A stretch of 64,000 nt of DNA, from positions 1-64,000 of the forward strand of contig NZ_JALJCL010000010.1 of the NCBI RefSeq assembly GCF_023698535.1. Reading direction: 5' to 3'. This DNA is from Halorientalis regularis. Its GTDB lineage: Archaea; Halobacteriota; Halobacteria; Halobacteriales; Haloarculaceae. The first letter of the stretch is position 1, and each line of letters starts with the position of its first letter. Shown piece after piece: positions 56,814 through 60,530 of this stretch. Under the pieces are notes generated by a model that worked only from the letters and a program-made list of their open reading frames with translations, had not been told where the DNA came from and searched no databases. Position numbers and translations under genes: made by a program.

Positions 56814-58292
56814 ATGACGCTTCGCGTGACGAACACGCTCACCGGCGAGCGCGAGGAGTTCGAGCCACGGGACCCCGACTCGGTGCTGCTCTACTACTGC
56901 GGCCTGACGACCTCGGACCCGGCACACCTGGGCCACGCCCGAGGCTGGGTCCACGTCGACGTGATGCACCGCTGGCTCGACCACCAGGGCTACGACGTGC
57001 GCCACGTGGAGAACTTCACCGACGTGAACGAGAAGATCGTGGCGCGCGTCGGCGAGGACGGCGAGAGCGAGGCCGACGTGGCTCGTACCTACGTCCAGCA
57101 GGTGATCCGGGACATGCGCTCGCTGAACCTCCTGCGCGCGGAGGTGTACCCACGCGTCTCCGAACATATCCCCCAGATAATCGACCTCGTGGAGACGCTG
57201 CTCGACCGAGGATACGCCTACGAGGAGAACGGTTCGGTCTACTTCGACGTGACCGCCTTCGAGGAGTACGGCAAACTCTCGAATCAGCAGGTCGAAGAAC
57301 TCGATTCCCAGGGCGAACACACCGGCGAGAAGCACAATCCCGCGGATTTTGCCCTCTGGAAGGCCGGCGGCGTCGATCCCGACGACATCGCCGAACACCA
57401 GCACGATGACGCGGCCCCGCCCGAGGCGGCCTGCGAAACCGCCCAGACGTGGGACTCGCCGTGGGGTGAGGGCCGGCCCGGCTGGCACATCGAGTGTTCG
57501 GCCATGAGCACGACCCACCTCGACGACACCATCGACATCCACGTCGGCGGACAGGACCTCGTCTTCCCCCACCACGAGAACGAGATCGCCCAGAGCGAGG
57601 CCGCGACGGGCCAGCAGTTCGCCCGCTACTGGCTCCACGTTGGCCTGCTGGAGACGAAAGACGAGAAGATGTCCTCCTCGCTGGGGAACTTCTCGACGGT
57701 CGCGGAGTTCGTCGGCGAGCACGGCCCGAACGTGGCCCGGACCTTCCTGCTCTCGACGGCCTACCACAGCAGGGCCACCTACAGCGCCGAGACCGTCGCG
57801 GAGGCCGAGGAACGCTGGGAGCGGCTCCAGACGGGTCACCGACGGGCCATCGAGGCCGCCGACAGCGTCGACGCCCACACGACGGTCGAGGACGACGCCC
57901 TCCGGGAGACGGTCGCCGAGGTCCGCGAGGCGTTCACGACGGCGATGAACGACGACTTCAATACGCGGGAGGCGACGACGGCGCTGCTGGACCTGGCGGG
58001 CGCGGTCAACCGTCACGTCGACGACCACGACGAGTACGACTACGTGGGCCTGCGCCGGGCCATCGAGGCCTTCGATGACCTGGGCGAGGGCGTGCTGGGA
58101 CTCAGTTTCGGCGGCGAGAGCGAGGGCGACGTGCGCGTCGCCCAGGAACTGGCCGACCTCGTCCTCTCGGTGCGCGAGCAGGAACGCGAGGCGGGCAACT
58201 ACGAGCGGGCCGACGAGTTGCGCGACGAACTCGAAGCGCTGGGTGCGACCGTCGAGGATACCGACGACGGACCGGTCGCTCGCTTCGACTGA
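56814..58292 (+). CDS. cysS: Cysteinyl-tRNA synthetase
   Basis: A 492-residue class I aminoacyl-tRNA synthetase. It shows the zinc ligand Cys29, the HIGH-type motif HLGH (38-41), the Zn-site region [31 protein letters not shown], and KMSSSLGNF near residue 285 in place of KMSKS. It has the normal length and charges tRNA-Cys with cysteine. The stop precedes the parA promoter by about 30 bases. Confidence 0.95.
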
Positions 58293-58321
58293 CGGTACAA
58301 CAATTGAGAATCGGGAGCGGA

Positions 58322-58330
58322 TTTTTATAA
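58322..58330 (+). promoter_or_regulatory. TATA box of the parA-cheW operon
   Basis: TTTTTATAA is one of the best TATA matches in the window. It predicts a start near 58353, a few bases before the parA ATG at 58360. Confidence 0.6.
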
Positions 58331-58359
58331 GGAGCGGTGACCCAGCACCGGTAGTAGCG

Positions 58360-59259
58360 ATGCATCGAAACGACCGTCCCGCGGCACTCTGTGTGACCAA
58401 CGCCAAGGGCGGGACGGGGAAGACGACGGTGGCGATCAACGTCGCGGGCGCGTTGAACGAGCGTGGCCGGGACGTGCTGTTCGTCGACCTCGACCCGCAG
58501 GGCAACGCCACGGAGGGGTTGGGCCTGGTCGAGGCCTACGACGCGGCACCGCCCACGCTGTTCGACGTGCTGACCGACCCCGACCAGCGGTCGGCGGTCC
58601 ACGACCTGATCCGCCCCCACGACGAGATGGACGTGTTGCCCAGTAGCATCGACATGCTCCAGGCCGAACACGAACTGACGATGGCCTCCGTGATGGCCAA
58701 ACTCGACGCCGACCCGTCGCTCGACGTCGATCCCGCGGTGCTGGAGCCGCTGACGATCAACGTCGGCCCGGATACGGTCAGCGGCGACACGGCGCTTGAC
58801 GGTCTGGAGAAAGTACTCGACGAACTCACCGGGTACGACTACGTGGTCGTCGACTCGCCGCCGTTCTACGGCCAGTTGACCGATACCGCGATCTACGCGA
58901 CCGGTAACGTCTTGATTCCGGCGCTGACCGAGGCCACCTCCGAACGGGCCATCGAACTCCTGTTCGACCAGATCGCGGCACTGGAGGATCGGACCGGTGA
59001 GACGGTGCGTGAGGTCGGCGTCGTCGCCAACCGGGTGGAATCGACCAACGAGGACGCCGAGATGCTCGACTGGCTGGAGGCGGTGTTCGAGGACGTGCCG
59101 GTCTGGTCGGTCCGCAAGCGCGTCGCGCTCCAGCGGGCCTTCTCCAGCGGCCAGTCGCTGTTCGCGTACGACCCGAGCGTCGACATGGCCGACCGATTCC
59201 TGGAGATCGCCGCCGAGCTCGACAGACAGTTCGGATTCGCCGAGGAGATACCACAATGA
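58360..59259 (+). CDS. ParA/MinD-family partition ATPase
   Basis: A 299-residue deviant Walker ATPase. The signature Walker A TNAKGGTGKTTVAINVAG has both lysines, followed by the Walker A' region RDVLFVDLDPQGNATEGLGL, and Walker B YDYVVVDSPPF. The C-terminus lacks a MinD-type membrane helix, so it belongs with ParA/Soj-like positioning ATPases that bind DNA or a partner. Its stop overlaps the start of a CheW gene, so it probably positions or segregates a chemosensory complex. ParA-like proteins do this for chemosensory arrays in several bacteria (ParC, PpfA), and MinD4 does in Haloferax. Confidence 0.88.
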   Translation: MHRNDRPAALCVTNAKGGTGKTTVAINVAGALNERGRDVLFVDLDPQGNATEGLGLVEAYDAAPPTLFDVLTDPDQRSAVHDLIRPHDEMDVLPSSIDMLQAEHELTMASVMAKLDADPSLDVDPAVLEPLTINVGPDTVSGDTALDGLEKVLDELTGYDYVVVDSPPFYGQLTDTAIYATGNVLIPALTEATSERAIELLFDQIAALEDRTGETVREVGVVANRVESTNEDAEMLDWLEAVFEDVPVWSVRKRVALQRAFSSGQSLFAYDPSVDMADRFLEIAAELDRQFGFAEEIPQ

Positions 59260-60530
59260 CCGACGAGGACACCAACGACCGGATGGAACGGGCGAACCGC
59301 ATTCGAGAGATGCGCGAAGGACGACGCCGCACACCCGGGGACGACGACCCCAAGGACGCGGACGAGGACGCGTCCGACGCGACTGCCGACGGCGGCGAGG
59401 CCGAGAGCGCACCTGCGGCCGACGCGTCCGACGCGACCGAAGACACCGCGGACGACACCGGTTCGGAGGGAGCCGGGCCGACGGCCACCGACGACACGGA
59501 GACCGACGAGAGCCCGGACGCGGACGACTCCGCTGGCTCGACACCGACCATCGACGAGACGGTCGACCCGGCCGACGAGTCGACGGCAGCCGACGCCTCG
59601 ACGGACGCGAGCGAGTCGACCGAGGAGCCATCGGCCGACGAAGAATCGGAAGCGGTCGGTTCCGCGACCGAGGACGGCGATGCCACGGGGGCCGACGAGA
59701 CGGGCGGAAGCGAGATCGAGAGTCCCGACGACGAACCCGCCGCCGACGAATCCGACGCCGTCGAGACCAGTGGGTTCGAGTTCGCCGGGTCGGCCGGGGA
59801 CGAACCCCCGACCGGAGACGGTGACGAACCAGCTGGTGAGCGCGAGGACGACGGGGAGACGGCGGCCACGGACGCGGCGGCCGAGGCGGCCGAACGGACG
59901 ACACCGCAGTCCGGCGTCGCGGCGTCCGTGTCTTCCGCTGACGGGGCCGAAGCCGTCGACGCACTCTCCGGGAGCGAAACCTTCGCCATTCCGGATCAGG
60001 CGACGACGGTCTCGGAGGACGACGAACAGTCGATGCTGGACGGGGAGGGAACCGTCGCCGCGGCGCGAGCGGCCGCGGCGGGCCGACGCACGGCCCACGC
60101 CAGCGACCGCACCCGTGTGTTGGAGTTCGAACTCGGCGAGGAGCAGTTCTGTCTCGACATCGAGTACATCGAGGAGATCGTCGAACTGGAGAACATGACC
60201 CGCGTGCCCAACTCGCCGTCCTACGTCGAGGGCGTGGTCGACCTGCGCGGGCAGGTGACCGCCATCATCAATCCCAAAGACGCCCTCGCAGTCGAAGACG
60301 ACGATCGGGGCGACCTCATCGTCGTCTTCGACTCCGAGGAGATGGACGAACAGGGCCACCTCGGCTGGGTCGTCGACGAGGTCCGGCAGGTCACGCCCGT
60401 CACCGACGAGGAGGTCAACGAGTCGCCCGACGAGGACGACGAACACATCAACGGCATCATCAACCGCGAGGACGAGGACGACTTCATCGTCTGGACGACG
60501 CCCGACCTCGCGCTGAACTCCTCGTCCTAA
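59256..60530 (+). CDS. cheW: CheW-domain protein with long acidic disordered N-terminus
   Basis: A 424-residue protein. The first 25 residues include a basic helix (RMERANRIREMREGRRR). About 30-270 is disordered and almost wholly Asp, Glu, Ala, Ser, Thr and Gly. The last 140 residues are a CheW domain (RVLEFELGEEQFCLDIEYIE, SPSYVEGVVDLRGQVTAIIN), which couples chemoreceptors to CheA. The N-terminal basic segment could be a ParA-contacting peptide, as in ParB or ParP-like partners. ATG overlaps the parA stop by 4 bases; no cheA or receptor gene is nearby. Confidence 0.88.
   Translation: MTDEDTNDRMERANRIREMREGRRRTPGDDDPKDADEDASDATADGGEAESAPAADASDATEDTADDTGSEGAGPTATDDTETDESPDADDSAGSTPTIDETVDPADESTAADASTDASESTEEPSADEESEAVGSATEDGDATGADETGGSEIESPDDEPAADESDAVETSGFEFAGSAGDEPPTGDGDEPAGEREDDGETAATDAAAEAAERTTPQSGVAASVSSADGAEAVDALSGSETFAIPDQATTVSEDDEQSMLDGEGTVAAARAAAAGRRTAHASDRTRVLEFELGEEQFCLDIEYIEEIVELENMTRVPNSPSYVEGVVDLRGQVTAIINPKDALAVEDDDRGDLIVVFDSEEMDEQGHLGWVVDEVRQVTPVTDEEVNESPDEDDEHINGIINREDEDDFIVWTTPDLALNSSS

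Follow-up and report, generated by a model that had tools for sequence, protein, structure and literature searches.

In Vibrio, the adaptor protein ParP joins an N-terminus that binds the ATPase ParC to a C-terminal domain that inserts into chemosensory arrays (PMC5706961). Halothiobacillus neapolitanus encodes ParC and a CheW protein in overlapping genes (PMC10241942). In the PpfA-TlpT system of Rhodobacter sphaeroides, a ParA homologue without a ParB distributes clusters of cytoplasmic chemoreceptors over the nucleoid; PMC2829493 places PpfA in che operons. ParF-ParG and other class Ib plasmid partition systems pair a small ParA with a partner whose flexible N-terminal tail becomes helical on the ATPase and stimulates its activity (PMC7308502). 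ParG, ParB and McdB each bind and stimulate their ATPases through a short basic helix on a disordered tether (PMC7308502, PMC12462528, PMC12204374). In archaea, the only proteins that the literature found ties to array placement are MinD4 and MinD2 of Haloferax, for which no cargo adaptor is known; these ParA/MinD ATPases are needed for normal localization of the chemosensory arrays in Haloferax volcanii (PMC11588486). Halobacterium salinarum has a second CheW outside its main che cluster, CheW2, which binds receptors, prefers cytoplasmic ones and does not bind CheA (PMC3579733).

Within a 64,000-nucleotide stretch of the Halorientalis regularis genome (the window), a parA gene overlaps a gene for a CheW-domain protein. 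Judged from its genes and domains, this unit probably uses ParA to position chemosensory clusters, and the CheW protein would be its cargo adaptor; it would operate in the manner of ParC-ParP or PpfA-TlpT of bacteria but be derived from a plasmid partition module of haloarchaea. A search of the open-licence literature found no description of an archaeal ParA-CheW pair. Like ParC-ParP, the pair combines a ParA-type ATPase with an adaptor that has an N-terminal ATPase-binding region (here putative), a long low-complexity linker and a C-terminal CheW-like domain (PMC5706961), and the genes overlap as do those of H. neapolitanus. In contrast to ParC-ParP, it is archaeal and in Haloarculaceae lies outside the che operon, its linker is acidic where that of ParP is proline-rich, and its ATPase groups with haloarchaeal plasmid ParAs, whose partner motif the adaptor shares. 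Related pairs in Natrialbaceae recall PpfA-TlpT in that they also sit beside soluble receptors, but the haloarchaeal adaptor is a CheW-domain protein and not a receptor. The cargo domain likewise separates the pair from ParF-ParG, being CheW instead of a DNA-binding ribbon-helix-helix. MinD4 and MinD2 belong to a different subfamily and, as far as reported, are encoded without a CheW adaptor; they show that ParA-CheW is not the sole haloarchaeal solution for array localization. Halobacterium CheW2, for its part, was described near the fla genes, with no mention of a ParA partner (PMC3579733).

The pair thus supplies a named adaptor with a predicted ATPase-binding peptide, found among others in named species of Haloarcula and Natrialba, and an instance of modular evolution among ParA cargo adaptors in which the tail is constant and the cargo domain varies. 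It also points to a family of candidate partners for the ParAs of haloarchaeal plasmids, and to a connection of salactin with the archaellum.

A two-gene operon with a probable promoter of its own

The first-pass annotation had described a complete ParA gene that overlaps a CheW gene by 4 bases behind a TATA box, with neither a ParB nor centromere-like repeats nearby, and the locus bears this out (Table 1). The parA reading frame is complete, with an intact Walker A motif and an AAA_31 match, and its end shares an ATGA with the start of cheW. Since the same 4-nt overlap recurs in 54/60 and 55/57 CheW-linked loci from two overlapping genome samples, chance adjacency of the two genes is excluded. 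The same-strand gene upstream (56814-58292) reads by inspection as cysS and the gene downstream of cheW, which reads by inspection as an FAD-type oxidoreductase, is convergent, so that the operon consists of two genes.

Table 1. Features of the parA-cheW locus, in window positions
Feature	Position	Strand	Basis
Promoter region (predicted function): element TACAACAATTGAGAATCGGGAGC, 58296-58318, then TATA block ATTTTTATAAG, 58321-58331	58296..58331	+	six-genome alignment
parA, ParA-type Walker ATPase, 299 aa	58360..59259	+	ORF, Pfam, structure matches
Deviant Walker A KGGTGKTT, ParA residues 16-23 (signature lysine K16, P-loop lysine K21)	58405..58428	+	alignment A1
cheW-type adaptor gene, 424 aa, start overlapping the parA stop by 4 nt	59256..60530	+	ORF, Pfam
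N-terminal basic helix, adaptor residues 9-22 (R-M-E-R-A-N-R-I-R-E-M-R-E-G), candidate ParA-binding/ATPase-stimulating motif	59280..59321	+	orthologue alignment, AlphaFold
Acidic disordered linker, adaptor residues 26-284	59331..60107	+	charge, conservation, pLDDT
CheW domain, adaptor residues 285-415	60108..60500	+	Pfam, Foldseek

The TATA-like block lies 29-39 nt 5' of the parA ATG. It is identical in six Halorientalis genomes, H. persicus included, where the sequence farther upstream differs. The promoter region as a whole is largely kept across the six genomes even where its flank diverges; the pair therefore most likely has a promoter of its own, with a leader that is very short or absent. 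The 23-nt element 5' of the TATA block, conserved in Halorientalis, is a possible regulator site.

No ParB-type gene and no iterons were found in the region, and the direct repeats found there are restricted to coding sequence and reflect Asp/Glu codons. Beside parA the locus shows neither the DNA-binding partner gene nor the centromere repeats of a ParABS system, and the partner is a CheW-domain protein. Nor are there che, arl or salactin genes near the pair in the window; the genome's single CheA and its only other CheW are encoded on contig C8. The ParA is 93-96% identical to those of H. pallida, a Halorientalis metagenome-assembled genome and H. persicus, in keeping with a host from the genus Halorientalis of the Haloarculaceae.

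A Soj-like ATPase

The ATPase belongs to the ParA fold family (Pfam AAA_31, 111 bits; CbiA, 80 bits) and carries the ParA-type deviant form of Walker A, KGGxGK[TS], intact as NAKGGTGKTT with its signature lysine; all Walker A residues except T19 are invariant in alignment A1. Its closest solved structures are of the Soj/ParA type (Soj/ParA/McdA matches, 1e-20 to 1e-10), ahead of MinD. On inspection, neither its C-terminus, DRQFGFAEEIPQ, nor those of its orthologues form a MinD-type amphipathic membrane-targeting helix, as they are not basic-amphipathic. Because the protein is Soj-like and lacks such a helix, its dimers are proposed to sit on the nucleoid. The residues R252-K253-R254, invariant in alignment A1, are only suggestive as a hint of ATP-dependent, non-specific DNA binding. 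An insertion of ~33 residues (ParA residues ~113-145; 58696-58794) is present in Haloarculaceae ParAs and missing from those of Natrialbaceae in the same alignment.

A proposed adaptor with a basic helix, an acidic linker and a CheW domain

The 424-residue partner is not a plain CheW: its first ~280 residues make up a long acidic tail, which opens with a conserved basic helix. Residues 9-22 and the CheW domain are the only parts conserved across 29 orthologues. Within the helix, R9, R12, A13, R15, R20 and G22 are invariant and the mean majority-residue fraction is 0.88; the first ~22 residues (R-A-x-R-[IL]-R-x-x-R) match the CheW domain in degree of conservation, whereas the linker does not. 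The linker (~260 aa, net charge -74) keeps neither sequence nor length, with mean majority-residue fractions of 0.09-0.39. AlphaFold models a helix over residues 4-21 (pLDDT ~88 in 11-20), disorder to ~282 (pLDDT <50 over most of the linker) and then a CheW fold. The identity of this SH3-like domain is clear from Pfam (PF01584, 76.7 bits against a cut-off of 23.5, residues 288-408) and from Foldseek, whose best matches are CheW structures at E ~1e-9. By analogy with ParG, ParB and McdB, the N-terminal helix may bind ParA and stimulate it. The coding region of the CheW domain also holds a 22-nt inverted repeat (60284-60339; 95% complementary, 12-nt loop), possibly a chance product of GC-rich codons.

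Distribution and association with CheA

The pair was surveyed in 293 genomes of the order, 60 of them Haloarculaceae. Orthologues of the window ParA occur in 44 of the 60 (>380 bits) and in three other genomes, G251, G069 and G008 (349 bits). A long CheW gene adjoins parA in all 44 Haloarculaceae carriers, of which 43 were read directly and one (G091) was judged from coordinates. The directly read pairs number 60, namely these 43, that of G251 and 16 of Natrialbaceae type; a second, overlapping sample comprises 57 CheW-partner loci from named genomes. The automatic search covered ATG starts, and the adaptor of G128, which apparently starts with GTG, was added by eye.

Every Haloarculaceae carrier of the pair also has CheA (44/44). 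Seven genomes have CheA only and nine have neither, among them G167 from the window's own genus, so that the nine genomes without CheA all lack the pair. Fisher's test gives p 8e-7 for this co-occurrence, with genomes that are not independent and phylogeny uncorrected.

A second, more divergent pair (ParA ~50% and CheW domain ~33% identical to the window's versions) is found in family f7, which by its named loci includes Natrialba, Halopiger, Haloterrigena, Natronorubrum and Natrarchaeobius. Of the 18 f7 genomes with at least two CheA genes, 17 were examined (all but G220), and all 17 carry it. This Natrialbaceae-type pair sits in a second che cluster, with CheA within ~3 kb in 16 of 17 pair genomes. 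In Natrialba asiatica (L226), CheD-CheA-CheB (CheB by inspection) on the opposite strand are followed by ParA-CheW2, a soluble protoglobin-type receptor and CheW1. The pair is mostly missing from the Haloferacaceae-type genomes sampled. Two Haloferacaceae-type ParA-CheW pairs, L074 (in G251) and L196, have very long adaptors of 508-557 aa, and the G251 linker contains three copies of the RAxR-type motif.

The proposal that ParA-CheW is a minimal archaeal array-positioning module calls for qualification. Only part of the Haloarculaceae, part of the Natrialbaceae and a few others have the pair, and bacteria offer close precedents for its function in ParC/ParP and PpfA/TlpT. The pair is not essential for haloarchaeal array placement, since seven Haloarculaceae have CheA without it and Haloferax uses MinD4 and MinD2.

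Plasmid relatives and the origin of the pair

ParAs of the same family are found on haloarchaeal plasmids, for example Halobacterium salinarum pHS4 and Haloarcula pHsi540. There the gene after parA, which in most cases overlaps it by the same 4 nt, encodes a "hypothetical protein" of 109-200 aa (one is longer) that has no CheW domain. These partners open with R-[AS]-x-R-[IL]-R-x-x-R, spaced as in the CheW adaptors; a disordered segment comes next, and the C-terminal domain is small and helical. In its loose form the motif occurs within the first 40 residues of all CheW partners (57/57 and 60/60) and of 19/19 and 31/34 non-CheW partners; in its strict form the counts are 55/57 and 55/60 against 16/19 and 24/34. 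Neither form occurs in 434 other acidic reading frames from the same loci (0/434 each). Because plasmid and CheW partners share the N-terminal motif but differ in the C-terminal domain, the adaptor family is modular, and its members would therefore combine a common, putative ParA-binding tail with an interchangeable cargo domain.

The C-terminal domain of the plasmid partners resembles a ribbon-helix-helix in sequence, but no significant match came from Pfam, from profile searching of the PDB or from Foldseek; a DNA-binding role is assumed from context. Such a protein, of ~130 aa, unannotated, lacking a Pfam match and bearing the R-A-x-R-[IL]-R tail, follows plasmid-borne haloarchaeal ParAs at L124:1755-2168, L126:3783-4184, L203:5777-6178 and other loci, and is a candidate for the general ParB/ParG equivalent of haloarchaeal plasmids.

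These relatives invite the reading that the window's pair is itself an ordinary replicon partition system whose adaptor is degenerate or moonlighting, given that close ParA relatives are plasmid-borne and have a short partner with the same N-terminal motif. That is very improbable: the adaptor's C-terminal domain is CheW and is conserved across families, no iterons were found, the genes on either side look like chromosomal housekeeping genes, and in Haloarculaceae the pair occurs only where CheA does.

In a tree restricted to haloarchaeal ParAs, the CheW-linked proteins fall into two groups. Plasmid-type ParAs join the Natrialbaceae group, and the Haloarculaceae group includes the ParAs of G069 (named locus L173, Halococcus thailandensis) and G008, both with non-CheW partners. 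A single CheW-linked clade is rejected in this tree (AU p 0.005). In the tree of CheW domains a single CheW2 clade is not rejected (p 0.35), and the branch leading to Natrialbaceae is very long. The simpler reading of the ParA tree, and the favored one, is that CheW was recruited twice; one origin of the CheW adaptor, followed by exchange between chromosome and plasmids, is possible. A broader scenario, offered tentatively and at a little under even chances, is that haloarchaea turned a plasmid partition module into an array positioner, probably at least twice and independently of bacterial ParC/ParP, by keeping the partner's N-terminal motif and swapping its C-terminal domain for CheW, and that in Haloarculaceae the result became part of a motility-pole neighborhood with an ArlD/E-domain gene and salactin.

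A model for cluster positioning

The suggestion that CheW is the cargo adaptor of this ParA, made in the first-pass annotation, has gained support: the overlapping-gene pairing is conserved in two families, the conserved basic helix lies where ParA partner proteins bind their ATPase, the same motif recurs in the CheW-less partners of homologous plasmid ParAs, and the pair appears in Haloarculaceae only alongside CheA, with linkage to che genes in Natrialbaceae or to ArlD/E and salactin in Haloarculaceae. In the proposed mechanism, ATP-bound ParA dimers would bind the nucleoid non-specifically, while the CheW domain would insert into receptor clusters in the manner of CheW or the AIF domain of ParP. 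The tethered N-terminal helix would then dock on the ParA dimer and stimulate ATP hydrolysis and release. As a result, a cluster would follow or shape a ParA gradient and be spaced, held at a pole or divided between daughter cells. For the Natrialbaceae pairs, the adjacent receptor gene makes a cytoplasmic (protoglobin-type) receptor cluster the likely cargo. The adaptor's CheW domain may not join kinase-active arrays, because Halobacterium CheW2, a possible orthologue, binds receptors and not CheA.

The pair could instead be a signaling device, in which receptor clusters act on ParA by way of the CheW adaptor and the sensory state thereby governs how the nucleoid or chromosome is partitioned, or the polarity of the cell. 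The ATPase is of the DNA-partition type and groups with plasmid ParAs, and salactin, a neighbor in many Haloarculaceae, affects DNA distribution in Halobacterium (PMC10746226). Against such a signaling device, which we regard as unlikely, no chromosomal ParB-like partner was found beside parA, the pair accompanies CheA throughout its Haloarculaceae carriers, and where ParAs partnered by a chemotaxis protein have been characterized, they position arrays (PMC10241942, PMC5706961).

Archaellum genes and salactin as neighbors

Among 40 named loci of Haloarculaceae type outside Halorientalis, a divergent ArlD/E-domain gene lies directly upstream of the pair in 37 and salactin follows in 25; at L175 the two score 103 bits (Pfam Arch_fla_DE) and 619 bits, respectively. 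The ArlD/E gene occurs in 0/19 loci with a non-CheW ParA partner. ArlD forms polar foci in Haloferax (PMC11588486), and salactin filaments extend from the cell poles (PMC10746226). This neighborhood could mean that the system mainly carries the archaellum motor or polar cap; CheW would then serve only to anchor it on the array side, and a motility pole would be built by ParA together with salactin and the ArlD/E-domain protein. We hold this to be quite unlikely, as the adaptor bears a CheW domain, the Natrialbaceae pairs sit among che genes without the ArlD/E-salactin neighborhood, and in the window's genome ParA-CheW is separated from the ArlD/E-salactin unit, whose two genes still adjoin each other on contig C42. 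With chemosensory clusters as the cargo, the neighboring genes in Haloarculaceae would instead suggest that positioning is coordinated with the archaellum or cell pole.

Salactin adjoins a stand-alone ArlD/E-domain (Arch_fla_DE) gene in Haloarculaceae both in the window's genome (G000:C42:25485-26891; L228, L229) and at L175:3185-4819. The words archaellum, flagellum and operon are absent from the paper describing salactin (PMC10746226), and the adjacency connects salactin with the archaellum at the genomic level. Salactin also lies beside a diverged ArlD/E relative in several genomes of the Haloferacaceae-type family f4 and in G011 (L236-L240).
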